Source: Pseudomonadota bacterium
GTDB taxonomy: Bacteria; Pseudomonadota; Gammaproteobacteria; Burkholderiales; Methylophilaceae
Assembly: GCA_020053735.1 (NCBI GenBank)
Contig: JAGVMP010000011.1
Location: 558,001 to 622,000 of the forward strand
Direction: 5' to 3'
DNA length: 64,000 nt
Shown here piece by piece: positions 16,865-60,382 of the stretch; the stretch's first letter is position 1, and every line of letters begins with the position of its first letter. Below the pieces are notes generated by a model. The model worked only from the letters and a program-made list of their open reading frames with translations, was not told the DNA's origin and ran no database searches. A program made the position numbers and the translations under genes.

Positions 16865-16901
16865 TGCTCTGTAGCCCGCATGGATATTGGTTTGCAGGGT
16901 A
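16865..16901 (+). repeat. 37-bp palindromic repeat, copy A
   Basis: Arms TGCTCTGTAGCCC and GGTTTGCAGGGTA around loop GCATGGATATT, with several G-T wobble pairs. It sits 12 bp beyond the stop of the gene at 16914-17330. Confidence 0.8.
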
Positions 16902-16913
16902 GGTGTTTTGAAG

Positions 16914-17330
16914 TTACTTTTTAGCTAATATCCAATAAGTTGGCTCGGCTTTTTCTGCTTGGTAAATCAGCATATATTTGCGGCGCAGGCTTTCATAAGC
17001 CTCATCCACGCTCACTTTGCCAGCTTTTGCATCTTGCTCTGCCTGCAACTTGGCAAATAACACCCACGCTGGGTTTTCGACATAGCCACGGTCTTGCATG
17101 CAGTTTTCTAGCACGCGCGCCTGACGACCGGCTTTCTCTAGGCGTTGAAACTCCAAACCTTCGGGCAATTTTAGCGCGGCTTTTTCCGAAATCAGCTCAC
17201 ATTCATTACCCACTTTAGCCAGCTCAGATAACTGGTAAGGCTTTTGGTCGTCTGGTGCCATCTTATCTGCATAAAGCATCAAGCCTACCAACGCCAGCAC
17301 TGGCACTAATACTGCAAAAATTCCCTTCAT
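16914..17330 (-). CDS. membrane-anchored hypothetical protein
   Basis: 138 residues with one N-terminal hydrophobic segment (about 4-20, FAVLVPVLALVGLMLYA) that acts as signal anchor; the remainder is hydrophilic and probably periplasmic. Two Cys (NECELI and ENCMQD) could form a disulphide. I recognise no family. It sits between the protease at 17375 and the large coiled-coil gene, all on the same strand; the 44-bp gap from the protease suggests co-transcription. Confidence 0.65.
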   Translation of the reverse strand: MKGIFAVLVPVLALVGLMLYADKMAPDDQKPYQLSELAKVGNECELISEKAALKLPEGLEFQRLEKAGRQARVLENCMQDRGYVENPAWVLFAKLQAEQDAKAGKVSVDEAYESLRRKYMLIYQAEKAEPTYWILAKK

Positions 17331-17374
17331 ATTATTACCTATTTGAATTTATATTATTCTGCATTTTGCCCGTC

Positions 17375-18409
17375 TTACTTTGCTGGGTCTAGCTCTTCAA
17401 GTAATTGTGGATTAATTTCTTTCAAAGTCACCCGAATTTTATCCGCCTCACTCTGCTTACCTTCGGTTTGTGCGATTTGCGCAACAGCCTGCAAACTAGC
17501 TGGGTGATTAGCCTGCAGGCTAAGTGCTCTGCTAAAATGCGTTTTTGCGCTATTTATATCGGCCAAATTTTGCGAAGATTTACCCAAATAATACCAAGCC
17601 TCGGCGCTTGCTGGCTCTTTTTCAACCCAATTTTTAGCGATGACTTGCACATCTTGCCAGCGATTATTTTGATACGGCAGCACAATCTGCATAAAAAACG
17701 GCCTGTCATTTTCGGCCGCATCCCAAAATGGCGCAGCGTGAACCGAGTTTAGCGGCACAGATTCCGTCAACAACAAAGCCCGCACCATATTAATCGGCAT
17801 ATTGTAGTAATAAGCATTTTTACCTGGGCTTTTAAAGGTGCTAATCGCAATCAATTTGCCCTCGTAATCAAACACTGGGCTACCACTGGCGCCAATAGCA
17901 AACGCTGCTTGGGTGCGAATCACTTGCTCATTATCATAGGTATACAGCGCCTTCACCGTGCTCAGCGCAACAAACGGTGCAGGCGAATCGTTGGGCATAG
18001 AAATAGAAATGACTTGCTGCTCGTAATTAAGCTTGGATGAATCCGCCATGGCGATGGGTTTTAAATCGGCATATTGCACTTTTAAAATACACAAATCGTG
18101 CTTCCAATCGGCTTGTAAAGATTCTGCCGGATATTCGGTGCCCCATTTGCTAATACTAATACCGTTGGCGTTGTTCAATACATGGCAATTGGTCACCACG
18201 TGGTCTTTGCTCACCGCAACGCCAGTGCCAAAACCATGTCCGCCGTTTTTGGTAGTGGTACTAATTTTTACCATCGATTGTTTTAAATCGTGCAGAAGCT
18301 CCATGCTAGGCTCTGGTAATACAGCGGCCTGCGCGTTGCAAGCAAGAGAAAAATAGCTACAACTTACTAAAAAAATCGAACAAAATTTGGCGATGTGCAT
18401 GGTATTCAC
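17375..18409 (-). CDS. exported trypsin-like serine protease with TPR repeats (paralogue 2)
   Basis: 344 residues, paralogue of the gene at 2248-3258. Signal peptide about 1-29 (ACNAQAA). Triad His76 (TNCHVL), Asp105 (KHDLCIL) and Ser175 (GASGSPVF), exactly ten residues later than in the paralogue. TPR-like helices follow at about 255-330 (AWYYLGKSSQNLADI). No PDZ domain. The two copies diverge mostly in the signal peptide and the TPR part. It probably heads the leftward transcript containing 16914-17330. The 333 bp upstream contains a 15-bp tandem repeat and the promoter of the 49-residue gene. Confidence 0.85.
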   Translation of the reverse strand: MNTMHIAKFCSIFLVSCSYFSLACNAQAAVLPEPSMELLHDLKQSMVKISTTTKNGGHGFGTGVAVSKDHVVTNCHVLNNANGISISKWGTEYPAESLQADWKHDLCILKVQYADLKPIAMADSSKLNYEQQVISISMPNDSPAPFVALSTVKALYTYDNEQVIRTQAAFAIGASGSPVFDYEGKLIAISTFKSPGKNAYYYNMPINMVRALLLTESVPLNSVHAAPFWDAAENDRPFFMQIVLPYQNNRWQDVQVIAKNWVEKEPASAEAWYYLGKSSQNLADINSAKTHFSRALSLQANHPASLQAVAQIAQTEGKQSEADKIRVTLKEINPQLLEELDPAK

Positions 18410-18482
18410 TTTTGTAAGTTACTAGATTATATGCTTGGGTTACATGGCTAAGTTATATAGTTACGAACTAGGGCAGGGCTGT

Positions 18483-18512
18483 AAGTTCCAAACCTAGAAG
18501 TTCCAAACCTAA
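18483..18512. repeat. 15-bp tandem repeat
   Basis: AAGTTCCAAACCTAG is followed directly by AAGTTCCAAACCTAA, 14 of 15 bases identical, in the intergenic region between the divergent protease and 49-residue genes. Could be two regulator half-sites; nothing else in this 332-bp gap is recognisable. Confidence 0.7.
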
Positions 18513-18741
18513 AAATTAAGCTTATTAGAAGTGCAGTTATCAGGCCAAATTGCACAGGCGTAGTGCGCTTATTTTCAGGATTTTCTAGAAATAACCTTAA
18601 TTAAAATACCTAAGCCAATGAATAATAAGTTAGCGTAAATATTCAATAAAGTCCTTAAATTGTCATATTTTTTTGGTCTAATAATTGCTTCATAAACAAC
18701 AGTACACTGCATTTAATCATTTATTTGTTTAGGGGCATAAA

Positions 18742-18891
18742 ATGACTATTTACCAAGTTGTGAACGAGCAAAATCAACCCATTTACGCTTTTCTTAGCTT
18801 AGAAAACGCGGCGCAAGAAGTGGAAATGTTGAACGAAAGTCGTGAGGATCATTTTTACTACATCAATGAAGTAGAGCTAGAAGCTGCTTAA
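18742..18891 (+). CDS. 49-residue acidic protein, MTIYQV family, paralogue 1
   Basis: A short frame begins MTIYQVVNEQNQPIYAFL and ends INEVELEAA, 49 residues, with AGGGG eight bases before the ATG. A second gene at 20993 encodes a protein of identical length with about half of the residues identical, including MTIYQV, YA, LNE and Y-x-IN. Conservation of length, start, RBS and pattern shows that both are real genes. The product is acidic with a hydrophobic/Tyr pattern, perhaps a small beta-alpha-beta fold. Family and function are unknown to me. Confidence 0.8.
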   Translation: MTIYQVVNEQNQPIYAFLSLENAAQEVEMLNESREDHFYYINEVELEAA

Positions 18892-18968
18892 CAAAAGTTA
18901 GCTGTTACTGGCACTTCATTTGCTAGTACAGCATTGCAGTAATGTATCTAGCTTAAAGACTATCGGGC

Positions 18969-19187
18969 TTAAAGACGTTTGGCTCTCAAGGGCGCCAGTA
19001 GCTCAGATAAACCGTTGTAGTCAATCTCTTGCATTAGTTGCAACAAGCGCCCCAAATCACCCGCAGGAAAGCCTTCGCGCGCAAACCAGTTTAAATAATT
19101 ACCAGGTAAATCGGCTAGTACACGACCTTTGTATTTGCCATAAGGCATCACCATGGTCACTAAACGTTGCAAATCATCTGCATTCAT
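18969..19187 (-). CDS. DUF3820 family protein
   Basis: 72 residues. Motifs MPYGKYKG, DLPGNYLNWFAREGFP and LGRLLQLMQEIDYNGL are those of the DUF3820 family, which is widespread in Proteobacteria and about this length. Annotated in some genomes as quorum-sensing-related, but its biochemical role is not established. Single gene; a 37-bp repeat lies 25 bp upstream of its start. Confidence 0.85.
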   Translation of the reverse strand: MNADDLQRLVTMVMPYGKYKGRVLADLPGNYLNWFAREGFPAGDLGRLLQLMQEIDYNGLSELLAPLRAKRL

Positions 19188-19211
19188 TTAAACGAAATTA
19201 GATTAAATAAT

Positions 19212-19248
19212 CGGCCTATGGATCGCATAGATATTGGTGGGCAGAGTA
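19212..19248 (+). repeat. 37-bp palindromic repeat, copy B (degenerate left arm)
   Basis: Loop GCATAGATATT (10 of 11 consensus) and right arm GGTGGGCAGAGTA are recognisable; the left arm CGGCCTATGGATC has decayed. It lies 18 bp after the stop of the coiled-coil gene at 19267. Confidence 0.6.
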
Positions 19249-19266
19249 TGTTTATACGCTTTTGAC

Positions 19267-20517
19267 TTAGCTCTTTTTAAGCTTTTCTGCATCCGCTTTT
19301 GCACGTGCCTCGGCCTTGGCTTTTAGCTTTGCTTTAGCTTCGGCTACCAACAATGCGTGTGCCTCTTCCTCTGGAGACATAACGCGATCTGCCGCCTGCT
19401 GCGGTACAGTGGCTGCTTGTTTGGCTTGTGCTTCAAATTCAGCCATCAAGCGTAATTGCTCCGCCTCGGCAAACGCAATTTTTTGTGCCTGCTGTGCCGC
19501 TTTTTCTGCTCTTCTAGCTTCCGCTTCCTCTGCTAAACGCGCTTTCGCTATGCGCGCTTCCTCAGCAGCCGCAGCCAGCTTGGCTTTGTCATTGGCCTCT
19601 GTTTCGACGCGCAATTTTTCTGCTTTGTGTTGTGCAACTTTCTCTGCAGCAAGTTTGGCTTTTGCAGCCCGCTCTATTTCCACCTGTTGCGCTGCGGCCT
19701 CTAAAGCAAGTTTTTCTGCTTGCTCTGCCTCTAAACGTTGCGCCTCCAATTTTGCTTGTTCCGCTTGTGCGGCCTCAGCAGCTTGCTTCGCTTTAAGCTC
19801 TTCCTGCGCTGCCTTTAGTTTTTCTAGCGCCTCTAATTTAAGGGTTTTTTGTGCTTCAGCAGCTTCAGCTGCAGCGCGCTCTGCCTTGAGTTGCTCTTGA
19901 ACTTTTGTTTCAGCTTTGGCTTTTTGAATGGCTTTAATAAGCGCCTCTTGCTGCTGGGCCTTATCAGTATCTTTCGCTTTTTCCTTCGGCTTTTCTTGCT
20001 CTATTTCCTGGACTTTTTCTTGGGTCTTTTCTTGCGCCTTTTCCTGCTCTTTAACTTGTTCTAATTGCTGTTCCTGTTTTGCCAGCTCGTCCAGTTTGGC
20101 TTGTTCCGCCAACTTTACCTGTTCAGCCTGTATTGCTTTTTCGGCTTCTGTCTTTAAGCGCTCAGCTTCCAATCGCGCCGTATCTTTATTTGCCACTTGT
20201 GCCGCCAATTTTGCAGCTTTCGATAACGCAATCTCTTCCACCACAATTTGCTTAGTGGTATCGCCAAAATCCCAATCGTCATCGCTTACGCTCACCACCG
20301 CAGGCTTGATATAACCTTCACTTTCTAACTTGCTTAGGGCATCCAGCAATTTATCTGCGCTAATATCATCATGCTTGGTCAAAATGGATTGCGCTTTTGA
20401 TACGCCATCAATAAATGAAAGCACTTTCATTAACTTGCCCGAAAGCCCGCCGATTAAAGAACTTCGCGCGCGCAAGCCTTTGGGCGTTTTGCTGTAAGTA
20501 ACTGATAAATCTGCCAT
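19267..20517 (-). CDS. coiled-coil protein with winged-helix-like N-terminus
   Basis: 416 residues. Residues 1-90 match the N-terminal domain of the 1071-residue protein (YSKTPKGLRARSSLIGGLSG, then VSKAQSILTKHDDI and LSKLESEGYIKP). The rest is an Ala/Glu/Lys/Gln-rich coiled coil with no transmembrane helix and no AsmA-like part, so it should be cytoplasmic. The two may form a hetero-oligomer through their coils or share a partner through the N-domain (inference). TolA-like sequence composition makes database hits to TolA or IF2 likely but uninformative. Confidence 0.75.
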   Translation of the reverse strand: MADLSVTYSKTPKGLRARSSLIGGLSGKLMKVLSFIDGVSKAQSILTKHDDISADKLLDALSKLESEGYIKPAVVSVSDDDWDFGDTTKQIVVEEIALSKAAKLAAQVANKDTARLEAERLKTEAEKAIQAEQVKLAEQAKLDELAKQEQQLEQVKEQEKAQEKTQEKVQEIEQEKPKEKAKDTDKAQQQEALIKAIQKAKAETKVQEQLKAERAAAEAAEAQKTLKLEALEKLKAAQEELKAKQAAEAAQAEQAKLEAQRLEAEQAEKLALEAAAQQVEIERAAKAKLAAEKVAQHKAEKLRVETEANDKAKLAAAAEEARIAKARLAEEAEARRAEKAAQQAQKIAFAEAEQLRLMAEFEAQAKQAATVPQQAADRVMSPEEEAHALLVAEAKAKLKAKAEARAKADAEKLKKS

Positions 20518-20992
20518 TTGTTGATAGTTGAGTTGTTAAACTTAAGTTATTTTGTAATTACGTTATTTTATAAATCATGTTTATTATATTTAGTTAGTGA
20601 GTAAAATTTTAGCGCAAAATTTTACTCAAAATTTTATAGTGTCACGAATGCAAAATTGCGTCAATCAACATGCCAAAGCATTATTGTATTTGATTACAAT
20701 TAATTGAAAAAACATGTCCTGCAGGCTAATATCCATGCGGTCTACAGGGCAATCAATAATGCACCAAACCCCTTAATTAAGTGCAGTTTACAATTAAATC
20801 GCCGATATTTACACACTATTGACGTAAGCTCATGCAAATTCTACCTAAAAAAACATCTTTTCTCGTTATTTTTCAGCCAAAAAATTTAGTTAACCAATTG
20901 AAATATAAAGGTAAATTTTATATTATTCATTGTTGGCCTAATTTATGCTCATTACCCATTGTGGTACGTAATTAACTTAAAGGAGCGTTAAC
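20518..20992. other. 475-bp AT-rich intergenic region
   Basis: Divergent gap between the coiled-coil gene and the second 49-residue gene. It is strongly AT-rich and contains repeat copy C (20715-20751). A frame that begins inside the repeat (20704-20889) has no RBS or family resemblance and is not a gene. AAAGGAG before 20993 is the only other clear signal. Confidence 0.6.
20715..20751 (-). repeat. 37-bp palindromic repeat, copy C
   Basis: Arms TGTCCTGCAGGCT and GGTCTACAGGGCA with the exact loop AATATCCATGC. Isolated in the middle of the 475-bp gap, about 197 bp from the nearest start. Confidence 0.8.
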
Positions 20993-21142
20993 ATGACTAT
21001 TTACCAAGTAATCAACAAACAAAGCCAATTAGAATATGCCTACCTTGACTACGAAGTGGCCGTAGAAGAAATTACTAAGTTAAACGAAGGCTTTGACGAC
21101 AGCTACTATTCAATTAATGCGATTGAGGACGAAGATTTTTAA
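20993..21142 (+). CDS. 49-residue acidic protein, MTIYQV family, paralogue 2
   Basis: Begins MTIYQVINKQSQLEYAYL and ends INAIEDEDF; 49 residues like the paralogue at 18742. AAAGGAG precedes the ATG with good spacing. The acidic tail and the Y-Y-S-I-N segment are conserved. The two genes bracket the DUF3820 and coiled-coil genes, which suggests a local duplication in which the second copy landed on the other side of them. Unknown function. Confidence 0.8.
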   Translation: MTIYQVINKQSQLEYAYLDYEVAVEEITKLNEGFDDSYYSINAIEDEDF

Positions 21143-21194
21143 GTTTTAGTTTTATCAGGCAATACCAGCATTGACTTAATACGGCTATAATCAT

Positions 21195-21231
21195 TGCTCT
21201 GAGAGGCGTATGTATATTGGCTGCTGGGCAT
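21195..21231 (+). repeat. 37-bp palindromic repeat, copy D (degenerate)
   Basis: TGCTCTGAGAGGC, loop GTATGTATATT (9 of 11), GGCTGCTGGGCAT. Geometry is kept; arms pair only in part. Lies 52 bp after the 49-residue gene. Confidence 0.55.
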
Positions 21232-21331
21232 GCCAGTGTTATACAAAATATGCTGATGATTCGTTATTTTTAAATATTCACTTAGCCTCAAGCCAGTGCT
21301 ATAGTGATAGCTAGTTAACGGAGAATTAGCC

Positions 21332-21514
21332 ATGGCCAAGCAAGATTTAAAAGACACCAAACTTCAAGAGCATGTTGATGCGATTGAAAAACACAAAGCT
21401 TTATTAGAAAAGCTGCATCTTGATTCAAACACGCACTTGGATGAAATCAACGGCTCCATCACCAAGCTCACCCTCACGCTTGAGGAATACCTTAAAGTAA
21501 TCGGCATCCCCTAA
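21332..21514 (+). CDS. 60-residue coiled-coil hypothetical protein
   Basis: Starts MAKQDLKDTKLQEHVDAIEK, mostly helical with a heptad-like pattern, ending in EEYLKVIGIP. A GGAG lies nine bases before the ATG. No Cys, no signal. I do not recognise a family. The opposite-strand frame covering its 5' end has no support. Confidence 0.6.
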   Translation: MAKQDLKDTKLQEHVDAIEKHKALLEKLHLDSNTHLDEINGSITKLTLTLEEYLKVIGIP

Positions 21515-21642
21515 TTTTCTAGCGCGATAACGCTTTTGGGCGCATAAGCACTACGCAATACGCCCGAACAAAACCCCAGTAAAACCCAAGTAATACCTAA
21601 GTAATACCTAAGCAAAGTCCCAAATTAAACTAAATATACCGC

Positions 21643-21711
21643 TTAAGCTGGCTTTTTTTCCTGCTTTGGTTTTTTAACTTCTTTGTTTTTGCGTTGTTGT
21701 CCTTTTGCCAT
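21643..21711 (-). CDS. 22-residue highly basic small protein
   Basis: A frame of 22 codons starts MAKGQQRKNKEVKKPKQ and ends EKKPA, preceded by GGAGAG eight bases before the ATG. Small basic proteins starting MAKGQ-x-R are present in many Proteobacteria, from memory and not verified. Lys/Gln-rich composition suggests nucleic-acid or ribosome binding. The 480-bp gap between 21514 and 21997 holds nothing else recognisable. Confidence 0.6.
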   Translation of the reverse strand: MAKGQQRKNKEVKKPKQEKKPA

Positions 21712-21996
21712 CTTATCTCTCCTCAAAACTGCCAGCAAAAATGCTAGCATGCGCACATCATAGGCCAAAAATTCACCTGCGTATGCAAAAAATCACACCC
21801 ATAATCACCAAACAAGCCCAATAGTCGTTTGGTGCCAATGCACCTTATTTGTGCACTTATATAGACTTACCTCATTATAATAATCCTAGCTATTATTTAA
21901 TTATTGTTTTAATTCATTAAGTTATCTATAACTTCTAGAATTTGGCACGGCATTTGCTATTATTTTTATAAAGCACAACAGTTAAAGGATTACCCA

Positions 21997-22419
21997 ATGG
22001 CGTTATTAAGCTGGTTAGATAGAAAAGTAGACGAACCTAAAGCAGGGTTTTTATCGGGCATCGATCTTAAATACGTGCTTGATACTCACCATTTGTTAAA
22101 GAAAAAGCTGCTGGATGAGATGGACGGTACGAGCACAGAACCATTAGATGTGGCCACAATTTCGCAGGATGATGTATGTGCAATTGGCAAATGGCTGTAT
22201 GGCGAAGGCAAAACTTTATATGGCCATCTACCAGAATATGAAACCGCGCGTCAGGTGCATGCAGAGCTGCATTTGTGTGCTGGTGAAGTGCTGGCGCAAC
22301 ACCAAATTGGCAATCAGGATCATGCATTCGCGTTATTAAAAACCAAATACCGCAGCACTTCTAGCAAAAACCAAATGGAATTTACGCGCTTATTTAAAGC
22401 CGCCAAAGTTCAACCTTAA
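21997..22419 (+). CDS. CZB (chemoreceptor zinc-binding) domain protein
   Basis: 140 residues with AAAGGA before the ATG. Matches the CZB pattern: DTHHLLKKKLL (His), DDVCAIGKWLYGEGK (Cys and Trp) and HAELHLCAGEV (His), the set that binds one zinc. CZB domains are usually attached to chemoreceptors or diguanylate cyclases and sense zinc or hypochlorous acid; here the domain stands alone. Stand-alone versions may act as adaptors. No chemotaxis gene is near. Confidence 0.78.
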   Translation: MALLSWLDRKVDEPKAGFLSGIDLKYVLDTHHLLKKKLLDEMDGTSTEPLDVATISQDDVCAIGKWLYGEGKTLYGHLPEYETARQVHAELHLCAGEVLAQHQIGNQDHAFALLKTKYRSTSSKNQMEFTRLFKAAKVQP

Positions 22420-22554
22420 ACCTAGCCGTAAGCTCAAAATTGCTTAAAAGGCCGGCGCCAACAGTTACTAAGCCAAATTAGGCTGAACTTAACTAGCCTA
22501 GCCAACCTCTTAAATTGTGAATGTCACTTTGACTAAAACTATTTTGGAGATTGA

Positions 22555-23079
22555 ATGCGCAAAATTCTACTCGGTCTAGCTGTAATTACCCCACTATTAG
22601 CAGCCACTGCACATGCCGCAGATAACAACATGCGGCCTGGCTTATGGCAAATCGAAACCACCTCAGATTTATTGCTGCTAGTACCGCACCTGCCGCCAGA
22701 CCAAATGCAAAGCATTAAAGATTTAGCCAAGGATTACGGGCTAGAAATGCCACAAATTGAAAATGGCGCTGCAATCTCACAAACATGCATCACCCAAGAA
22801 ATGGCGAATCAAAAAACACTGCCCAATTTTTATAACGCGGAATTAGGGTGCACCTCTAAAAGCGCCACCCGTAACGGTAACAACTACAAAGTAGATTTTG
22901 TGTGCGCCAGCGCAGACCTTAAAGGCAACGGCACTGCAGAAGGCACCATTACCACCCCAGAAGTCTTTACAGGGCAAACTAATTTTACTGGCACTGCTCA
23001 AGGCAATCCAGTGAATGAGCGGGCAGATATCAACGGTAAATGGTTGAATGCAAGCTGTGGCGCAGTAAAACCGCTTTAA
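22555..23079 (+). CDS. DUF3617 family periplasmic protein
   Basis: 174 residues with a clear signal peptide (cleavage about AHA|ADN at residue 22). The N-terminal MRPGLWQIETTSD and the later Cys pair (SQTCIT, GCTSKS) are typical of DUF3617, a family of unknown function in Proteobacteria. GGAG precedes the ATG. Repeat copy E begins six bases after its stop, so the hairpin would be at the very 3' end of the mRNA. Confidence 0.82.
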   Translation: MRKILLGLAVITPLLAATAHAADNNMRPGLWQIETTSDLLLLVPHLPPDQMQSIKDLAKDYGLEMPQIENGAAISQTCITQEMANQKTLPNFYNAELGCTSKSATRNGNNYKVDFVCASADLKGNGTAEGTITTPEVFTGQTNFTGTAQGNPVNERADINGKWLNASCGAVKPL

Positions 23080-23085
23080 AATAGA

Positions 23086-23122
23086 TGCTCTGGGATCCGC
23101 ATGGATATTGGTCTGCAGAGCA
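23086..23122 (+). repeat. 37-bp palindromic repeat, copy E
   Basis: Arms TGCTCTGGGATCC and GGTCTGCAGAGCA with exact loop GCATGGATATT; the outer seven pairs and inner two are perfect, the middle is an internal loop. A T run follows (CTGTTTTTT), so this copy might also terminate transcription. Confidence 0.82.
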
Positions 23123-23150
23123 TACTGTTTTTTAAATAAATTCATCTTTT

Positions 23151-23769
23151 CCGTCATTCCGAACTTGATTCGGAATCCAGTGACTTAAGATACAAGTCGG
23201 GGGTAGCCCGACAGCTAGTTACTTTCTTTTAACTGCCTGAAAAGAAAGTAACCCAAGAAAACGGCACCCCAACATCACGGCCTACGGCTTTCTTGCGTTG
23301 CTCAACAAAATAAGCGGCTGTGCAACTCAACCTAACAAGCCACACAAAACGTGACGTGTTGCGGGATTCAAACAGGTGCTCGCCTTCATCTTATTTTGTC
23401 TGCGCTACTCAGCGTGATGAGGGGGAGAAAACCAACGTTAACCTCTCACCATCACCGTCATTCCCGCGAAAGCGGGAATCCATTTTAACAACATATCAAA
23501 AACCACTGGATTCCGTGTCAAGCACGGAATGACGGAGTTTAAATGGTTGTGGCTTTAAATCCCCTTTGCCGCGCCTTCGGCTTGAGCGGCAGATGGAAAG
23601 CGGCGAGGACTGTTTGAGTGCTGAAAGCACGAGTTCCGCAGCCGCCCAGATGCGGCGCTAAGACCGAAGGATAAAGCGGCAACGGGGTGTCTTTTTGTTT
23701 CCCCACTTTATTTTGGACAAGCAAAATAAAGTGGGTCGCCAAGAGGCGAAAGAATAATTTTCTACTTAC
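23151..23769. repeat. gene-free repeat island
   Basis: About 620 bp without credible genes. It holds three copies of the widespread GTCATTCC-type palindrome: 23151-23186 (ATTCCGA/TCGGAAT), 23455-23485 (ATTCCCGC-GAAA-GCGGGAAT) and, inverted, 23503-23535. There are also two perfect hairpins: GTTACTTTCTTTT / AAAAGAAAGTAAC at 23218-23252 and CCCACTTTATTTTG / CAAAATAAAGTGGG at 23702-23735. Between them is a GC-richer block (23570-23690) with small hairpins such as GTGCTGAAAGCAC. Such blocks recur in many proteobacterial genomes as non-coding repeats. Frames inside it do not resemble proteins. Confidence 0.7.
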
Positions 23770-24060
23770 CTACAACTGCGAAAATATATATTCCATAGCT
23801 TTATCACCACGCTTGTAACCTGTTCGCGCATCGAACTTTACTTTCAATAAGTCCAAAGAAAAGACTTCGTGTACTTTGAGTATTTTCCATCCAACCCTTT
23901 CACCGCTAACGCTACCACCTGACACTTGATAGCATCGTAGTATTTCTTCACCATCTTTATCGCGCCCGTAAGCGTGCGGTTCGACTGTACGAGAATAACC
24001 ACTATAGCGTAACTCTAATTCTCGCTGTTCTTGTATAGCTTGAACAATAATATTGTTCAC
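23770..24060 (-). CDS. small WYL-like domain protein
   Basis: 96 residues, GTG start (an in-frame stop lies two codons upstream). The pattern RTVEPHAYGRDKDGEEILRCYQ, GWKILKVHEV and GYKRGDKAME resembles a minimal WYL-type ligand-binding fold, which elsewhere is attached to HTH regulators of phage-defence or DNA-damage loci. No HTH is present. It follows the zinc-ribbon gene by 20 bp on the same strand and is probably co-expressed. Similar stand-alone proteins occur in accessory regions. Identification is by eye. Confidence 0.6.
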   Translation of the reverse strand: MNNIIVQAIQEQRELELRYSGYSRTVEPHAYGRDKDGEEILRCYQVSGGSVSGERVGWKILKVHEVFSLDLLKVKFDARTGYKRGDKAMEYIFSQL

Positions 24061-24080
24061 AAATTATGCTCGTAAATGCA

Positions 24081-24530
24081 CTAATTTGTTTGCTTTGGTG
24101 AGATCTGCTCAGTACGCCAGCCTGAATACTGATGCCCGCATGATGTACAAATATGCAACCCACGATCTTTTGATGAGTTTACCAACTGTCTTGTCTTATG
24201 CTCATTTTCCCAACAACGTAAACAGTAAGCTAGACCAGTTGGATTGCCATCTTTATCAGATATGTAGTATGCATCGCCATGACGAGCTAATGAGTCTTTT
24301 TTCTGAAATGCATCTTCTAATTCAGCTATTTTTTTATCTTTCTCAATTAGAGTATCTTGAACTTCGACTAACTCCATTTTAGTGTCAGCAAGTGAACCCA
24401 AAAGGTCAGCTAGTTTTAATTTCAATTCTGCTTTTTCAAGATTTACATCACTTTCACGTATGAATTTAACGATTTCAGTTGCAGTCTTGAGACTACTGAG
24501 TGCTGCTCCAATTGTAGCCAAATCAGCCAT
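24081..24530 (-). CDS. coiled-coil zinc-ribbon protein (accessory)
   Basis: 149 residues: an N-terminal helical part (about 1-75, with EKAELKLKLADLLGSLADTK and EVQDTLIEKDKKIAELEDAF forming a coiled coil) and a C-terminal zinc ribbon (YCLRCWENEHK and ICTSCGHQY). Proteins of this type are scattered in accessory and mobile regions with no known function. Its ATG begins directly after the nrdJb stop (TAA-ATG, no intervening base), so translation is probably coupled to the reductase gene, which is odd for an accessory protein. Confidence 0.7.
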   Translation of the reverse strand: MADLATIGAALSSLKTATEIVKFIRESDVNLEKAELKLKLADLLGSLADTKMELVEVQDTLIEKDKKIAELEDAFQKKDSLARHGDAYYISDKDGNPTGLAYCLRCWENEHKTRQLVNSSKDRGLHICTSCGHQYSGWRTEQISPKQTN

Positions 24531-25235: not shown

Positions 25236-25343
25236 AATTTCTCTCCTAAATACTGCAACTCTTGCAAGGGTGCAAACTCAGCCGACATATTTGCAAACCA
25301 ATGTTTAATTTCTAATATACGTTTAGATAATTGCATTTGCTTA

Positions 25344-25382: not shown

Positions 25383-25401
25383 AAAGCTTTATGTTTACTC
25401 A

Positions 25402-37953: not shown

Positions 37954-38100
37954 AAGATAGCCTATATATCGTTGTTAAATTAATTTGTGTATTTATAACA
38001 CTTTTTTATAAAAAATACATAATTTTTGCAAATTATCATACAGTCCACTTAACACGCTTTTCTTGCCTTTTTAGACGTTTTCGCGTACATTTCTCCCATT

Positions 38101-38204
38101 GCTAGGGGTCTGATTTATTTGAAAAAATAAGCCAGTGAGAATCACCCTTTGAACCTGATGCGGGTAATGCCGCCGTAGGAAAGCAGCTTTATATGCTTTC
38201 CTAC
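38101..38204 (+). ncRNA. TPP riboswitch (THI element)
   Basis: The conserved aptamer core is present: AGGGGTC, then AGTGAGAATCACCCTTTGAA, CCTGATGCGGGTAATGCC and CGTAGGAAAGC. It controls thiC by binding thiamine pyrophosphate. Directly after the core, GTAGGAAAGCA pairs perfectly with TGCTTTCCTAC (38194-38204); the same 5' strand can alternatively pair with CTGCTTCCTAC at 38233-38243, which is followed by a T-rich run. These alternatives probably form the expression platform. Confidence 0.93.
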
Positions 38205-41992: not shown

Positions 41993-42029
41993 TGCCCTGT
42001 ATGCCGCTATCCATATAGCTTACAGGGCG
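41993..42029 (-). repeat. 37-bp palindromic repeat, copy F
   Basis: Arms TGCCCTGTATGCC and AGCTTACAGGGCG pair well at the base; loop GCTATCCATAT is the most diverged. Located between the yidB terminator and uppP, 61 bp before the uppP start. Confidence 0.65.
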
Positions 42030-49001: not shown

Positions 49002-49038
49002 TGCCCTGCAGACCGCATGGGTATTGGCCTGCATGACA
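49002..49038 (+). repeat. 37-bp palindromic repeat, copy G
   Basis: Arms TGCCCTGCAGACC and GGCCTGCATGACA with loop GCATGGGTATT (10 of 11). Immediately follows the DoxX-like gene. Confidence 0.75.
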
Positions 49039-50880: not shown

Positions 50881-50899
50881 ACCTAGTTTTTCAAACGCA

Positions 50900-50965: not shown

Positions 50966-51002
50966 TGTTCTGTAAGCCAATATCCATGCGGTCTACAGAG
51001 CG
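50966..51002 (-). repeat. 37-bp palindromic repeat, copy H
   Basis: Arms TGTTCTGTAAGCC and GGTCTACAGAGCG, exact loop AATATCCATGC. Shares 19 consecutive bases with the copy inside sua5. Confidence 0.85.
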
Positions 51003-51131: not shown

Positions 51132-51150
51132 AACGACGACATTTTCCAAA

Positions 51151-52218: not shown

Positions 52219-52279
52219 TTAAAGACCGTTAAGTTATGTAATTATTGGACTCAAACGTTGAGCGAGATGAAGCGCACGG

Positions 52280-52334
52280 CGTACAGCGCGCAGAAGCCGA
52301 GACAGTACTTTTTGTACGACAAGGCTGCGAGCAC
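52280..52334. repeat. second-class hairpin, copy 3
   Basis: GCGCAGAAGCCGAGACAGTAC, apical T run, GTACGACAAGGCTGCGAGC. Shares conserved blocks with the element at 49092. Lies between the hemE start and the gltD stop, with degenerate palindromic flanks (GCGAGCACTGCAC). Confidence 0.55.
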
Positions 52335-52371
52335 TGCACAACACAGCGATTCGCTCGCGCAAACATTGAGT

Positions 52372-53811
52372 TTAGCGTGGTAAGGTTGAGCTACCCATTA
52401 AGAACTCATCTACTGCTTGCGCAGCTTGGCGGCCTTCGCGAATCGCCCACACCACTAAAGATTGCCCACGGCGCATATCACCCGCAGCAAATACTTTGTC
52501 AACATTGGTTTTATAACTACCCAAACCATCTGTGCAGGCTTTGGCATTGCCACGCGCATCTTTTTCTACACCAAACGCTTCTAGCACAGATTGCACAGGG
52601 GAGACAAAGCCCATCGCTAACAAGACTAAATCGGCCTTAATGGTAAATTCAGTGCCTGCAACTTCCTGCATTTTTCCATCTTTCCACTCAACTTTAGCAC
52701 CGACTAATTCAGTTACTTTGCCGTTTTCACCTTTCAGCATTTTGGTGGTAATCGACCAATCGCGGTTAGCGCCTTCTTCATGACTGCTAGAGGTGCGCAA
52801 TTTAAGCGGCCAATTTGGCCACACCAGTTCTTTATTTTCTTTTACTGGCGGCTGCGGCATCAACTCAAATTGCGTTACGCTTAATGCGCCATGGCGATTA
52901 CTGGTACCCACGCAATCTGAACCCGTATCGCCGCCGCCAATCACCACCACGTGTTTATTGGTGGCCATTACTTGATTAGGCACGCTGTCTCCAGCCACCA
53001 CTTTATTTTGTGCTGGTAAAAAATCCATGGCGTACATCACACCATCCAGCTCACGGCCAGGTACTGGCAAGTCACGTGGAAACTCTGCACCTCCCGCCAA
53101 TACTACTGCGTCGTATTCTTTTAATACATCTTGGGCGCTGACGCCGTTTGATCCTTCGGCACCTACATTTTGATTGACCAAAAAGCTGACGCCCTCAGCT
53201 TCCATCTGTGCCATGCGGCGGTCAATATGCGTTTTTTCCATTTTGAAATCGGGAATACCATAACGCAGCAAGCCACCAATGCGGTCATTTTTTTCTAACA
53301 CCACTGGGCTATGGCCTGCGCGCGCCAATTGTTGCGCAGCAGCTAAACCTGCTGGACCTGAGCCAACAACCGCAATCTTTTTACCTGTTTTATTGGGGTT
53401 AATTTGCGGTGTTACCCAGTCATTCTCCCATGCTTTATCAATAATCGCGTGTTCAATCGACTTAATGCCGACCGCATCGTTATTGATATTAAGCGTACAC
53501 GCTGCTTCACACGGGGCAGGGCAAATACGGCCAGTAAACTCGGGGAAGTTGTTGGTGGAATGCAGCACGTCAATTGCATTACGCCAATCTTGCTGGTAAA
53601 CCAAATCATTAAAATCGGGGATGATGTTATTGACAGGGCAACCTGTGGTACAAAATGGAATGCCACAATCCATGCAGCGCGCACCTTGCTGCTTGGCTTG
53701 GTCATCCGTTAAATGCAGTACAAATTCTTTGTAATTTTTAACACGATCTACTACTGGCAGATTTGCTTCTGCCAGTCTTTCGTATTCCATAAAACCTGTT
53801 ACTTTGCCCAT
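52372..53811 (-). CDS. gltD: glutamate synthase (NADPH) small subunit
   Basis: Feeds NADPH electrons through FAD and iron-sulphur clusters to GltB. 479 residues. N-terminal Cys motifs [20 protein letters not shown] and [15 protein letters not shown]-binding [25 protein letters not shown]-binding [16 protein letters not shown] and the C-terminal [17 protein letters not shown]. Starts 15 bp after the gltB C-terminal gene, forming gltBD as in other bacteria. Confidence 0.97.
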
Positions 53812-53826
53812 ATTTAAAGTCTTCCC

Positions 53827-54615
53827 TTAAGCCGCTACTAATGCTTTATCTTCTGCGAGTTCAATCAACGCACGCTTATATTCGTTTGGCATTACTTTCA
53901 CAAATTTCGTGCGGTAATTTGCCCAATCTGCCAACATGGTTTTAGCACGTTCACTACCCGTGTACTTGGCGTGTTTTTCAATCAAACCTTTTAACGTCAA
54001 TTCATCAGGTTGGTCTAAATGTAAAATTTTACCAATGTCTGCCTCAGCGACTTCTACTTTCTCAAGTGCCACCATGCTCATATTACAACGCTTGGCAAAC
54101 AAGCCATCTTCGTCATAGACATAGGCTACGCCGCCGCTCATGCCTGCCGCAAAGTTTTGGCCTGTGAGGCCTAGAACCACCACTGTGCCGCCTGTCATGT
54201 ATTCGCAACCATGGTTGCCAACGCCTTCTACCACAGCAGATGCACCAGAATTACGTACACAGAAGCGCTCGCCTGCCACGCCATTAAAATAAGCCTCGCC
54301 TGTAGTCGCGCCGTACATCACCGTATTACCAATGATAATATTTTCGTGTGCGACACCTTTGAAGCTAGCTGGGCGTGTAATCAATACGCGCCCGCCACAC
54401 AAGCCTTTGCCTACATAATCGTTGCCTTCGCCAGTCAATGAAAATGTGATGCCTTTGGCTAAAAATGCTGCAAAACTTTGGCCAGAAGTACCAGCAAAAT
54501 TGACATGGATGGTGTCATCAGCTAAACCTGCATTACCATAGCGCACAGCAATTTGATTCGACAACATGGTGCCCACGGTGCGATTGGTATTAGTAATAGG
54601 CAAGTCTATCGTCAT
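53827..54615 (-). CDS. gltB: glutamate synthase large subunit, C-terminal GXGXG domain (split gene)
   Basis: 262 residues matching only the end of Glt[19 protein letters not shown] and the right-handed beta-helix with repeated G-x-G motifs ([53 protein letters not shown]). Its ATG overlaps the stop of the upstream part by ATGA at 54612-54615, at a run of six A. Together with the upstream gene it gives 1550 residues, the normal GltB length, and the junction falls where an ordinary GltB reads straight through. Confidence 0.9.
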
Positions 54616-57600
54616 TTTTTGCCAGTTTCTAGAGCTGGCATGGCAAGTTCAATCAGCTTGTTATCAAGCGCGTTCACCAGATTATGATCTTGAATATCCA
54701 CATTTTTGCGTGCTACGCTGGCTGGCATATCCACTTGGTGGAAAATTTTGCTGAAATCTAAACCGTGGATTTTCCAATGGTCAACGCCCGCTTTCATGTC
54801 GAGCAAATCACTACGGCCAATTAAATCCTCAAATTTGGCAATACCCAGACTTGCCATCAGCTCGCGCACTTCTTCTGCAATAAAGAAGAAGAAATTCACC
54901 ACATGCTCTGGCTGGCCAGTAAATTTTTTGCGTAACTCTGGATCTTGCGTCGCCACACCCACTGGGCAGGTATTTAGATGGCATTTACGCATCATAATAC
55001 AGCCTTCAACCACTAGCGGCGCGGTCGCAAAACCAAACTCATCAGCACCCAATAGCGCACCAATCAATACATCGCGGCCTGTTTTCATTTGGCCATCTAC
55101 TTGTACAATGACGCGACCGCGTAATTGGTTGAGCACTAGGGTTTGCTGCGTTTCAGCTAAGCCCAACTCCCAAGGCGTTCCTGCATGTTTCACACTAGAA
55201 ATTGGTGAGGCGCCTGTACCGCCATCGTGGCCAGCAATTACAATATGGTCAGATTTGGCTTTGGCCACGCCAGCTGCCACTGTGCCAACGCCTGTTTCTG
55301 AAACCAATTTAGTTGAAATAGAGGCCTTTGGATTAGCATTTTTCAAATCATGGATCAGTTGCGCCAAGTCTTCAATCGAGTAAATATCGTGATGCGGTGG
55401 CGGTGAAATTAAGCCCACGCCTGGTACCGAGAATCTTAACTTGGCAATGTATTCAGAAACTTTATGGCCTGGTAATTGGCCACCTTCGCCTGGTTTTGCG
55501 CCTTGTGCCATTTTAATTTGAATCTGGTCAGCTGAGGCCAAGTATTCTGCGGTCACCCCAAAGCGGCCAGAGGCCACTTGCTTAATGCGTGAGCGCATCG
55601 AATCGCCAGCGTTTAATGCAATATGACTTTGCACCATATTTTTGCCGATGACATCGGCCATGGTGGTATCTTTTGCTACAGGAATAAAGCGCTTGGCATC
55701 CTCACCACCCTCGCCAGTGTTGGATTTTCCGCCGATGCGGTTCATGGCAATGGCCAAGGTCGCGTGCGCCTCTGTTGAAATAGAGCCCAATGACATGGCG
55801 CCAGTGGCAAAGCGTTTAACAATGTCTTTAGCTGACTCCACTTGCTCCAATGGGATTGCTGCTGCGGCAGGTTTAATCTCAAACAGTCCACGCAAGGTTT
55901 TGTAACGACGCGCTTGGTCATTAATCAGCTTGGCGTACTCTTTAAACGTATCAAATTTATTGGTGCGTGTGGCATTTTGCAGTTTAGCAATGGTTTCTGG
56001 CGTCCACATATGCTCTTCGCCGCGAACCCTAAATGCGTATTCGCCACCTGCATCCAATTGGTTTGCCAGCACGGGGTCATCACCAAACGCTAAATTATGT
56101 AGGCGTAGGTTTTCCTCAGCTACTTCTGTAATGCCAATGCCTTCGATTTGTGAGGCAGTGCCTGTGAAATATTGTTGAATAAACGGCGTATTTAAACCAA
56201 TTGCTTCAAAAATTTGTGCGCCGCAGTAAGATTGATAGGTAGAAATACCCATTTTTGACATCACTTTATACAAACCTTTACCGATGGCTTTTACAAAGTT
56301 TTTAGCGCCAGTGTATCCATCACCAGCTGCATTATTATGGGTCATGTGGTTAATGGTTTCAAACGCTAGCCACGGGCAGACTGCCTCTGCACCATAGCCA
56401 GCCAATAATGCAAAGTGATGCACTTCACGCGCAGAACCCGTATCAACTACTAGGCCTGTACTTGTACGCAAGCCAGCCTTAACTAAATACTCATGTGTAG
56501 ATGAACAGGCCAGTAACGCAGGAATCGCGATGCGGTTCTTCGCGATGGCTCTATCGGATAATATCAGCACATTAAAGCCGTCATGCACTGCTTGTTCGGC
56601 CAGTTTATTTAGGCTGGCAACGGCGACAGCCAATCCTGCACCAGCTTGCTTGGCATCATAAGTAATATCTAACACCAATGATTTAAATTGTCCTTTAGTT
56701 GCCGCACCAATTTTTTTAAGCTGTTCAAGCTCGCTTAAAGTCAACACAGGTTGGCTGGCTTCTAGACGCAGCGGGGGATTGCTTTCATCAATGCCAAGTA
56801 AATTGGGTTTTGGGCCAATAAATGTCACCAACGACATCACCAACTCTTCACGAATTGGGTCAATCGGTGGATTTGTTACCTGTGCAAACAACTGTTTAAA
56901 ATAGTTGTACAAGGTTTTTGGTTTATTCGACAACACCGGCAATGCCGCGTCGTTACCCATAGAACCTGCGCCTTCTTCGCCATTGGCAATCATCGGCTGC
57001 ATGATAAATTTGATATCTTCTTGGCTGTAGCCAAACGCTTGTTGCGTGTCCAGCAGGCTTTCTGCCATATCCAGCGTCGCTTCTGCTTTAGGTAAGTCGC
57101 CTAGGAAATAGCGCGATTGCTCAATCCATTTTTTATAGGGCTTGGCGTTGGCAAGCTCGCTTTTCACTTCTGCGTCATCAATAATGCGACCTTGTTGCGT
57201 ATCAATCAGCAACATTTTGCCTGGCTGCAAACGCCATTTTTTAACGATTTTTTCTTGTGGAAAAGTGAGCACGCCCATCTCAGACGCCATCATGACGATA
57301 TCATCATCGGTCACTAAATACCGCGCTGGGCGTAAACCATTTCTATCTAGCGTTGCGCCAATTAAATTACCATCGGTAAACGCTACGGCAGCTGGACCAT
57401 CCCATGGCTCCATCAGCGCAGCGTGATATTCGTAAAAGGCACGACGCTCTTCATCCATGAGCGCGTTGTTATTCCAAGCCTCAGGAATCAGCAACATCAT
57501 GGCATGTGGCAAGCTGTAACCACCCGCTACTAACAGTTCTAGACAGTTATCAAAACAGGCTGAATCTGATTGGCCTTCGGCAATCAGCGGCCAAAGCTTG

Positions 57601-58478
57601 TCTAAATCTTCACCAATAATGGCTGACTTCATGGTCTCGTGACGTGCCGCCATCCAATTCACGTTGCCTTGTACGGTATTGATTTCGCCGTTATGTGCAA
57701 TCATGCGGAATGGATGCGCTAAATCCCAGGTCGGGAATGTGTTGGTTGAAAAACGTTGGTGTACTAAGGCTAGGGCAGAAACGACGCGCTCATCCACTAA
57801 ATCTTGATAGTAAATACCCACTTCATTGGCCAGCAACATACCTTTGTAAACAATAGTACGGCTAGAAAAAGACGGCACATAAAACGCGGCATTATCTACC
57901 AAATTAAGCGCACGTACTGCGTGTTCGATACGTTTACGGATCACGAAACATTTACGCTCAAATTCTGTTTGGTCTGCGACGCTGCTGCCAACAAATACTT
58001 GGCGCATACACGGCTCTACATCGCGGGCAGCTACGGCAATGTTGCTGTTATCTACAGGAACATCGCGCCAGCCCAATACAGTTTGATGCTCTTCGGCAAT
58101 AATTTTGTTAATTAGCGCTTCGCATGCAGTACGGTTTTTTGCATCTTGCGGTAAAAATAAGTTGCCTACTGCATAATTTCCAGAATCAGGCAGCTTGATA
58201 TTGAGCTTAGCAGCCTCTTGGCGGAAAAATGCATCCGGCATTTGCATGAGCAATCCAGCGCCATCGCCCAATTTAGGGTCATAGCCCGTAGCACCGCGAT
58301 GGGTTAAATTGGTTAGTAGTTGCAGCCCTTGCTGCACGATTGAGTGGCTTTTTTTGCCTTTGATGTGTGCTACAAAGCCTACGCCACAGCCATCTCTTTC
58401 ATTGCGCCTGTGATATAAACCTTGGTTTTCTGGAACGTATTTTACCAATTTTTTTGTTTGCTCAACTGCCATATTCAT
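54612..58478 (-). CDS. gltB: glutamate synthase large subunit, N-terminal and catalytic part (split gene)
   Basis: 1288 residues: class II amidotransferase domain whose nucleophile Cys follows a short propeptide ([14 protein letters not shown]), the central domain, and the FMN synthase domain with [43 protein letters not shown] and the 3Fe-4S motif [15 protein letters not shown]. Makes glutamate from 2-oxoglutarate and glutamine with GltD. The frame ends TGC-free at GGC-AAA-AAA-TGA; one more A would continue into the C-terminal part. Start ATG 58478. Confidence 0.93.
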
Positions 58479-58636
58479 TGCCTAATCATTTCATGTTCAA
58501 AACATTTAGCGGAACCTTCAATATTACCGTTAAATCATCGCAATTTCAATCATATAGCGCGTATTTGGCTTGAGATTTAAGCAATAAAACCCTAGTTTTT
58601 ATTTCTTACAAATTTATTTTTGATATTAGCAATGAT

Positions 58637-58667
58637 TTGACAATTTAAATGAGAATGATTATCATTT
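58637..58667 (+). promoter_or_regulatory. sigma-70 promoter overlapped by a Fur box
   Basis: TTGACA at 58637-58642 and TATCAT at 58660-58665 are 17 bp apart. TGAGAATGATTATCA at 58650-58664 matches 14 of 15 positions of the 7-1-7 Fur consensus TGATAAT-N-ATTATCA and covers the spacer and -10 box, so iron-loaded Fur would block it. Confidence 0.88.
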
Positions 58668-58704
58668 AATTAAATAAGTTTTCATGTCAACTTAAGGAGT
58701 TGTG

Positions 58705-58971
58705 ATGCAAAATAAATTGAATCGAAGCAGGGTAAAAAGTGGCCCTGATTGCGAGAAAATTGAACTAGCCGATTCATGTGGTGTGCGGCTCATTTATTGC
58801 CAAGATTGCCAAGTGGTTGAGCTGGAAATTGGTGCAGTTTGTGTACGCCTGTGCCCAGATGTGATTCAGCGCATGGCCAATGTGATGATGAAAGCTAGCT
58901 TAGAGCTAGAGCACCTCGCAGCTGTCAGCAACAAACTGCCCACTCAAGCCAGACCACAAATGATTCATTAG
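58705..58971 (+). CDS. Fur-regulated 88-residue protein
   Basis: Start ATG 58705 with AAGGAG six bases upstream; the GTG one codon earlier is less likely. Contains CGVRLIYCQDCQVVELEIGAVCVRLCPDVIQRMANVM: five Cys, including a C-x2-C pair, and helical C-terminus. It may bind iron, haem or a thiol metal site. The strong Fur box implies expression under iron limitation. I do not recognise the family. Convergent with hemL. Confidence 0.75.
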   Translation: MQNKLNRSRVKSGPDCEKIELADSCGVRLIYCQDCQVVELEIGAVCVRLCPDVIQRMANVMMKASLELEHLAAVSNKLPTQARPQMIH

Positions 58972-58982
58972 TTAAATGGGGA

Positions 58983-60269
58983 TTAACTTAAACCAGTAAA
59001 TGCTTTTTTTGCTGCCTCAACCGTAAACGCAATATCTGCATCGCTATGCGCAGCCGATACAAAGCCAGCTTCAAAGGCACTAGGGCCAAGATACACGCCG
59101 CTTTCCAGCATGCTGTGGAAAAACTGGTTAAAGTGCACTTTGTTATTAACTCGCATAATTTCTGCATAGCTAGTGGGGCAATGTTCGCTAAAATAAAGCC
59201 CAAACATGCCACCCACATTTTGCGCACTAAAAGTGACACCCGCTTGTTGAGCAACCACCATCAATCCATCCATCAGCTTTTTAGTTTGTGCAGTCAGTTT
59301 TTCGTGAAAACCATTTTCCTGAATTAATTTCAGCGTCGCCAATCCTGCAGAAACTGCCACTGGATTGCCCGACAGCGTACCCGCTTGATACACTTTGCCC
59401 ACAGGCGCCAAGCATTGCATAATCTCTTTACGGCCGCCAAACGCGCCCACTGGTAAGCCACCACCAATTACTTTGCCCAGCGTCGTCATATCTGGCTTGA
59501 TGTTATACAGCGCTTGTGCGCCGCCTAAATGCACCCTAAAACCCGTCATCACCTCATCAAATATCAACACTGCGCCGTGTTTGGTGCAGAGTGCACGCAA
59601 CGTTTGTAAAAATTCCAATTTTGGCACAATGAGATTCATATTGCCCACCACCGGCTCAATAATCACGCAGGCAATTTCGTCACCTGATTTTGCAAATAAG
59701 TCTTCAAGTTGCTGGCTATTGTTGTATTCCAAAGTCAGTGTATGTGCGGCCACACTGGCAGGCACGCCACTGGAGTCAGGCTCGCCAAATGTCAGTAAAC
59801 CAGAGCCCGCTTTCACCAACAAGCCATCCGAATGGCCGTGGTAACAACCCTCAAACTTCACAATTTTGTCGCGCCCGGTAAAACCACGCGCAGTACGAAT
59901 CGCACTCATGGTAGCCTCGGTGCCGCTACTGTTTAAGCGCACTTGCTCCATGCTCGGTACTAATTTATTAACCAGCTCGGCCATTTCTAGTTCTAAACCG
60001 GTTGGCGCGCCAAATGACAGACTGTTTGCCGCGGCGTCTTGCACCGCTTTAATCACTTGCGGGTGCGCGTGACCGACAATCATTGGCCCCCAGCTATTAA
60101 TGTAATCAATATATTCTTTGCCATCTACATCCCAAAGCTTTGAACCTAACCCTTTTTTAAAGAATATTGGCGTGCCGCCCACACTACGAAAGGCGCGCAC
60201 AGGCGAGTTCACACCGCCAGGGATAAGTGCTTGAGATTTTTCGAACAGGGTTTGATTGAGTGAATTCAT
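58983..60269 (-). CDS. hemL: glutamate-1-semialdehyde 2,1-aminomutase
   Basis: PLP enzyme forming 5-aminolevulinate in the C5 pathway. 428 residues. N-terminal [67 protein letters not shown] and the PLP-Lys motif [19 protein letters not shown] are diagnostic. Downstream of thiE on the same strand, with repeat copy I between. Confidence 0.97.
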
Positions 60270-60345
60270 AAGATATTCAGGCTAATTGTTAATCGCAATA
60301 TTTTATCAGAATCTAAAGTGATGAATTTAAAAACATTCAAATTGA

Positions 60346-60382
60346 TGCTCTGCAAGCCAATATCCATGCGGCTTGCAGAGCA
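60346..60382 (-). repeat. 37-bp palindromic repeat, copy I (best copy)
   Basis: Perfect 13-bp arms TGCTCTGCAAGCC and GGCTTGCAGAGCA around loop AATATCCATGC. It lies 16 bp after the thiE stop and is the most regular copy in the window, so it probably represents the consensus. Confidence 0.9.

Follow-up and report, generated by a model that had tools for sequence, protein, structure and literature searches.

A dispersed, near-palindromic 37-bp motif in Methylophilaceae with likeness to DNA uptake sequences

DNA uptake sequences serve as labels of "self" DNA in natural transformation. The uptake signal sequences (USS) of the Pasteurellaceae have AT-rich flanks. They pair a 9-bp core with an A-tract whose distance from it is constant, they originate by point mutation and not by insertion, and in H. 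influenzae 65% of the copies are coding (PMC1939737; this and the other papers given by PMC number are cited from excerpts). The DNA uptake sequences (DUS) of the Neisseriaceae are over-represented words that use both strands, occur in coding and non-coding DNA and at gene ends, occupy terminators as inverted pairs, vary among relatives and, in Simonsiella muelleri, form dyads of overlapping simDUS and kingDUS (PMC3630211). In the literature surveyed, likewise in excerpt, uptake sequences are described only for these two families, and the cause of their rise is debated.

Here we report on a dispersed motif of about 37 bp that was noticed in a stretch of 64,000 nucleotides (the window) of a Methylophilaceae genome (assembly GCA_020053735.1, contig JAGVMP010000011.1, positions 558,001 to 622,000). 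With the DUS of the Neisseriaceae it shares over-representation, the use of both strands, copies in coding and non-coding DNA and at gene ends, a dyad arrangement and variation among relatives, and with USS it shares the A-tract at a fixed distance from a core, coding copies and a probable origin by point mutation. Because its in-place origin, its permissive sites, its occurrence on both strands and its variants among relatives match features of DUS, we propose, with even confidence for and against, that the motif behaves as a DUS-like element spread by molecular drive in Methylophilaceae. Competent cells would prefer the uptake of DNA that carries the motif, which a pilus-associated receptor would read, and the incoming DNA would replace homologous chromosomal DNA, with recombination as the driver. 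Point mutation together with biased recombination would let the motif accumulate at all sites where constraints on proteins and regulation permit it; most copies would then stand behind genes, and those within genes would mainly use the single frame that gives a tolerable peptide.

Abundance and form of the motif

A preliminary description, made from the letters of the window alone, had listed nine dispersed palindromes. All nine are real and far above chance: the 24-base pattern CYCTGNNNNCCAATATCCATGCGG had seven matches with at most three mismatches in the window, versus none in each of 100 shuffles. Oriented alike, the copies read approximately TGCYCTGCARRCC-AATATCCATGC-GGYYTGCAGRGCA. As had been described, the 11-nt loop AATATCCATGC is exact in five of the nine, all of them are intergenic by our own gene calls (made throughout with a custom script, not with a standard tool), and five lie 6-18 bp from a stop codon (Table 1). 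The uniform geometry of 13-nt arm, 11-nt loop and 13-nt arm holds for seven copies, in which 10-13 of 13 arm positions pair with G-T included, but not for those at 19212 and 21195.

The preliminary description had taken few copies outside the window as an outcome that would speak against its palindrome family. The opposite was found, because the genome of 2.44 Mb holds about 200 copies. At least 178 sites were located, of which 173 were read; they were drawn from 100 of the 113 places of a 15-mer, from 150 scored candidates out of 1293 of a covariance model, and from a 464-kb sample, beyond which weak copies are under-counted. The model, built from the nine copies, had 143 matches at E ≤0.1 among the 150 candidates that were scored. 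Genome-wide, there are 48 exact occurrences of the 15-mer CCAATATCCATGCGG, 113 with at most one mismatch, and none when it is read backwards. An unbiased sample of 400 kb, which excludes the window, contains 37 places that match the 22-mer CTGCAAGCCAATATCCATGCGG with up to five mismatches, in comparison to a mean of 0.15 for 60 permuted motifs; 18 lie in 36.8 kb of non-coding and 19 in 363 kb of coding DNA, and scaling leads to about 226 copies per genome. In the 464-kb sample, which includes the window, itself chosen for holding copies, the four most over-represented 12-mers all belong to the motif (ATATCCATGCGG was found 19 times versus 0.19 expected). The motif is thus strongly over-represented in the genome, as expected of a DUS or USS.

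The genomic consensus is approximately TAAAAYAGMTGCYCTGCARRCC-AATATCCATGC-GGYYTGCAGRGCA, about 37 bases that are near-palindromic. In 103 non-coding copies, 956 of 1339 arm cells are Watson-Crick pairs versus 928 after shuffling (standard deviation 10.5; reached by 14 of 2000 shuffles), and in coding copies the values are 295 of 572 versus 291 (standard deviation 8). The partial compensation in the arms that had been noted for the nine copies is not significant in them (54 of 500 shuffles reached the covariation score, 13 of 500 the number of paired cells); genome-wide it is weak in the 103 non-coding copies and absent in coding copies. The arm covariation thus comes close to the lack of compensatory changes that had been named as a second adverse outcome. 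The left arm is nearly equally conserved in non-coding copies and in coding copies that share one reading frame, while the right arm is not kept in coding copies. Of the 103 non-coding copies, 55 have an A-tract at positions -7 to -4, as do 19 of the 44 coding copies in that frame (12 and 2 for T in the same test), and the 3' flank is T-rich in 68 of the 103 non-coding copies (22 for A). Because arm pairing is barely above composition, and left arm and A-tract are kept in in-frame coding copies, we read the element as a long dyad-like sequence motif and not as a hairpin maintained by pairing. Recognition by a protein, which had been suggested from the nine copies, is still the best idea.

Placement, spread and origin of the copies

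Of the 173 copies that were read, 70 are coding; convergent gaps hold 53, tandem gaps 45 (20 along and 25 against the gene direction) and divergent gaps three, and two lie at edges. In the 464-kb sample, convergent gaps contain 11 of 27 non-coding copies, yet these gaps cover 3.9 kb of the 41.0 kb that are non-coding; divergent gaps contain one of the 27 in 9.4 kb. Inside genes, 54 of the 70 copies have the coding orientation and 44 use a single one of the six frames, which results in peptides like ..LQANIHA.. or DALQANIHA; of the other 26, 10 use one of the two remaining frames on this strand and 16 have the opposite orientation. Pfam gave names to 20 of the 44 in-frame hosts, which are largely housekeeping proteins and include HrcA, an acyl transferase (FabD), a formyl transferase (Fmt), DnaG primase, a TrpD-type transferase, Sua5, a PrmC-type methyltransferase, a MoaA-type radical SAM protein, AIRS, prephenate dehydrogenase, a Mur ligase, GlnE, DNA polymerase I, and a class III aminotransferase. 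Both strands are used, and no replication-strand bias was seen: 52 non-coding copies are on the plus and 51 on the minus strand, and the counts are 24/23 on three contigs with negative GC skew and 11/11 on two where it is mostly positive (a test by counts only, with the skew known from sampled stretches of these five contigs). A strand-dependent replication signal (priming, chi, KOPS) was therefore rejected.

To place the genome among its relatives, 627 proteins of the stretches read were compared; 21 match loci of the metagenome-assembled Methylophilaceae bacterium S06.Bin152 (median identity 93%), and another 49 have their match in Methylotenera P-RSF-NP-04 (65%), on which grounds the genome is taken to belong to Methylophilaceae. 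In 15 genomes of the genus, with at most 150 candidates scored per genome, the model had 134, 107, 69, 51, 49, 39, 22, 18, 18, 12, 2, 1, 1, 0 and 0 matches, so that ten motif-bearing genomes (12-134) and five motif-poor ones (0-2) can be told apart. In the Mur ligase (65-68% identity) and in Fmt (76-77%), the five motif-poor genomes count among those most distant from the genome under study; genome G456 is equally distant in one of these two proteins, and G457 and G463 are in the other. The motif looks tied to a section of the genus. Of 187 genomes in the family, 44 contain AATATCCATGCGG exactly at least once, and a few genomes of other genera have it in quantity (50, 17, 17 and 11 copies); in the order, the 15-mer is present in 15 of 300 genomes, in 11 of them as a single copy. 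A pattern that contains the arms retrieved at least 102 stretches from named genomes, mostly metagenome-assembled genomes (MAGs) labelled Methylotenera, Methylophilaceae or Pseudomonadota. The motif varies among relatives: at arm position 8, the non-coding copies of the genome under study have A in the left arm (84%) and T in the right (89%), the 30 copies of relative JABFRQ have G (67%) and C (53%), and the six copies of relative JAKQIT have C opposite C at arm position 7.

The origin of the copies was approached via nine of the 44 in-frame host proteins, which were aligned with homologues. Seven were informative; in DNA polymerase I the motif lies in an interdomain linker, and in the aminotransferase the alignment stops inside the motif. 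In TrpD, MoaA (with a one-residue gap), PrmC and TsaC of the window, ordinary residues of homologues with solved structures stand opposite the motif peptide; in Fmt and the Mur ligase, which we take to be of the FolC type, the peptide aligns with family residues of relatives. In FabD, the peptide QANIHAGHS aligns with PSIVAGHS of the homologue. An insertion of the 12-13 residues of the motif itself was found in none of the seven informative genes. In two genes, Fmt and the Mur ligase, the score of the motif is graded at the same codons among orthologues (the score matrix includes the own copies of the genes tested). The Fmt site has a score of 38.6 in the genome under study, of 45.9, 36.5, 35.6, 35.1, 31.6, 24.7 and 24.2 in motif-bearing relatives, and of 14.6, -10.7, -15.0, -15.9 and -18.5 in motif-poor ones. 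The respective values for the Mur-ligase site are 44.6; 42.1, 37.1, 34.1, 26.2, 24.1 and 23.1; and 8.0, 7.4, -7.9, -27.7 and -33.0. As the alignments are collinear and the orthologous sites graded, they indicate that the motif arose in place by point substitution in the seven informative genes.

The uptake reading and its alternatives

The genome under study carries ComEC and PilQ, and among the 15 genomes of the genus ComEC is present in 13 and PilQ above the cut-off also in 13, this genome included. Several observations weigh against uptake-driven spread, and the main ones are the low copy number and the strong degeneracy. N. meningitidis and N. gonorrhoeae reportedly carry about 1900 copies of a DUS 10-mer, and DUS have 10-12 bp (PMC3630211), in contrast to about 200 degenerate copies of about 37 bp here, with another sequence and in another family. 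The dominance of exact copies at very high number that characterizes DUS and USS was not found; three of the 37 places in the 400-kb sample are exact 22-mers, and in the 464-kb sample 9- and 10-mers from other repeats outrank those of the motif. Uptake sequences have been called non-palindromic (PMC1939737), while the motif has palindromic arms; it also differs from USS in its sequence and has fewer copies. The A-tract is not clearly enriched in the 26 coding copies outside the preferred frame (8 versus 5 for T). Extra segments of 4-10 residues adjoin the motif in three genes, namely four residues ahead of it in FabD, nine upstream of it in the Mur ligase (three genomes), and ten slightly downstream of it in Fmt (the genome under study and G455). 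Some motif-bearing genomes have low scores at the orthologous sites, G461 (-9.2) and G460 (-28.4) in Fmt, and G456 (3.2), G463 (0.4) and G460 (-1.4) in the Mur ligase. All five motif-poor genomes contain ComEC and PilQ, and the genomes without ComEC (two) or without PilQ above the cut-off (two) are incomplete motif-bearing ones. No receptor was found in the loci of the genome under study that were read, where a pattern retrieved one prepilin-like open reading frame and no dedicated search for minor pilins was made. Finally, a similar hairpin of phages and plasmids, treated below, is not predicted by an uptake function. A literature search for uptake sequences in Methylophilaceae or Methylotenera retrieved no paper on the subject, as judged by title and abstract for the looser matches. 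The sequence strings searched for in papers occur in 11 and in 6 of them, and these matches look like primers or chance, as judged from the listings.

The prepilin-like open reading frame has 217 residues (GFTLVEMAIVLVILGLL) and shares the 3-kb stretch C11:37390-40390 with a motif copy.

The main alternative, doubtful in our view, is a dispersed site of an intracellular DNA-binding protein with a role in chromosome organisation, segregation or repair, which would be selected in place. A long, specific and dyad-like motif that forms by substitution in coding as well as non-coding DNA would suit such a protein, and A/T at arm position 8 in both arms here, with G/C in JABFRQ, would be expected for dimer binding. 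However, the counts are free of orientation bias, and the preference for gene ends is strong. The known sites of this kind, matS, parS and KOPS, are shorter and fewer than the motif, which also speaks against this explanation.

The enrichment in convergent gaps, the near absence from divergent gaps and the T-rich 3' flank would fit bidirectional transcription terminators with a conserved loop. This is nevertheless improbable, because 70 of the 173 copies are intragenic, 54 of them in coding orientation, and the arms pair barely above composition. Moreover, transcription terminators do not need a conserved loop for their function. The terminator scan that was used admits loops of 3-8 nt only, so that a loop of 11 nt is beyond its range.

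Slightly less probable still is a mobile palindromic repeat, either a repetitive extragenic palindrome (REP) or an element that enters genes in frame. Rickettsia palindromic elements are palindromic DNA inserted in frame within many unrelated proteins, and the occurrence of one motif in one frame of many proteins is reminiscent of them, as are the small extra segments beside three coding copies. However, those elements are insertions, whereas here the motif peptide replaces ordinary residues; the homologue alignments and the graded orthologous sites thus disfavour an in-frame insertion, which the frame bias had suggested. REPs are palindromes of 20-40 bp in high copy number that are often found behind genes, and some lie within genes, in many cases genes for replication and repair (PMC3733652). 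The many palindromic non-coding copies at 3' ends and the patchy distribution among genera would be in agreement with a REP, and the preliminary description had considered a REP-type mobile unit while noting that the window lacks a gene for a REP-associated tyrosine transposase (RAYT). The latter extends to the whole genome, in which PF01797 (Y1 transposase) had no match at E 0.001, with positive controls in five of 14 genomes. In addition, the motif consensus lacks a GTAG or CGTC end tag, no insertion of motif length is seen in the seven informative genes, where coding copies are collinear substitutions, and orthologous sites are graded. The mobile unit is therefore not upheld, and the identity with REP/RAYT systems was rejected, since the genome has no Y1 transposase match. 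A palindrome family that looks like REPs can thus be a substitution-driven motif, and aligning the coding copies exposes such cases.

Phages and plasmids have a closely similar hairpin, AACCC-GCATGGnTAyT-GGGTT, with the loop of the motif between other arms. Viral contigs contain it in at least 119 stretches, and it is present in phages, PAJU2 for example, and in plasmids. The plasmid search gave 1009 records, of which 985 have 90-95% identity, and most of those listed have E near 8. Within this larger family, 20 viral stretches contain the loop together with its closing pairs, CC-GCATGGATATT-GG, extended by AC/GT. The contigs that were read usually have one or two copies each, often in element-specific repeats near replication genes; by eye, the hairpin lies inside contig-specific repeats in several elements. 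Ten neighbouring proteins, hand-picked for nearness and length, include five DUF5906/VapE-type helicases, three integrases (one of them below the Pfam cut-off), one DEAD-type helicase, and one without a family. An E. coli prophage has the hairpin behind a RepA-family helicase gene (a weak match, E 2), and six Rfam matches at seven phage or viral hairpin loci are all below the gathering score. In a sample of 369 genomes from the class, only the genome under study has the phage-like form ATATCCATGCGGGTTTC. The shared loop and closing pairs, the location on the 3' side of genes for DUF5906/VapE-type helicases, seen in five contigs, and that between rep and parA in a Massilia plasmid could suggest that the chromosomal copies are descendants or captures of this replication-gene hairpin. 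However, the arms are unlike, and a coding copy that arose in place cannot be a hairpin that was captured; this is the least probable explanation of those weighed here. A CsrA-type RNA site was rejected, because the GGA of the loop is not retained in the phage/plasmid form.

The uptake reading can be carried further, to a third, independently evolved lineage of uptake sequences with a dimeric receptor on a 37-bp dyad and a core derived from or shared with the phage/plasmid replication hairpin; in this full form we consider it unlikely. If true, a third case, in free-living methylotrophs, would allow origin and drive to be traced among motif-rich and motif-poor congeners.

Copies in the window and minor observations

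The list of nine intergenic copies had overlooked a coding copy and a doubtful weak one (Table 1). Two further exact loop 11-mers, at 6541 and 42088, are both without arms.

Table 1. Copies of the motif in the 64-kb window.
Feature	Position	Strand	Remarks
Coding copy	4320-4356	-	Inside TsaC/Sua5 gene on the minus strand (3975-4925); reads LPEANIHAVSG in frame
Intergenic copy	16865-16901	-	12 bp to stop codon
Doubtful weak coding copy	17483-17524	-	Trypsin-like/TPR gene; E 0.019; 3/13 pairs
Intergenic copy	19212-19248	-	Degenerate arms, 7/13 paired including G-T; 18 bp to stop codon
Intergenic copy	20715-20751	+	Divergent gap, the only one among the nine
Intergenic copy	21195-21231	-	Degenerate; 7/13 paired in standard register, including G-T
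Intergenic copy	23086-23122	-	Convergent gap; 6 bp to stop codon
Intergenic copy	41993-42029	+	Good arms (11/13 paired including G-T), degenerate loop
Intergenic copy	49002-49038	-	Convergent gap; 7 bp to stop codon
Intergenic copy	50966-51002	+	Convergent gap
Intergenic copy	60346-60382	+	Perfect palindrome; top model score; 16 bp to stop codon

An Rfam scan of the window retrieved only a thiamine pyrophosphate (TPP) riboswitch and one tRNA, and the motif copies matched no curated family. The TPP riboswitch (38094-38198) lies immediately 5' of thiC (38267). Another over-represented word, GTCATTCCCGCG, occurs 12 times in the 464-kb sample versus 0.04 expected, and once in the window (23457-23468). 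Several copies with a truncated right arm (L363, L366, L370, L003, L011 and L133) continue into a second small repeat, approximately GCATGAATAACCAGCTTTAGCTGG.

In Methylotenera P-RSF-IL-11, a sequence that begins with TGTAGGAGCGA and presumably resembles a GTAG-type REP is found directly behind motif copies. The motif is in frame (ALQANIHA) in a protein, which we take to resemble MutS, of a Nitrosomonadales MAG and of a Gallionella MAG. A KPC plasmid contains the phage-type hairpin in a segment of about 95 bp that is bounded by inverted repeats (L358:2960-3080). The ssiA site of IncQ plasmids, suspected after a match to an IncQ1 plasmid, was dropped, since no IncQ iterons were seen alongside; the match is inside the inverted-repeat segment of about 95 bp. 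In JACPEG, a MAG of a groundwater betaproteobacterium, contig ends share some 130 bp of almost the same sequence, which includes the motif; the end of an insertion sequence would be placed in this way.

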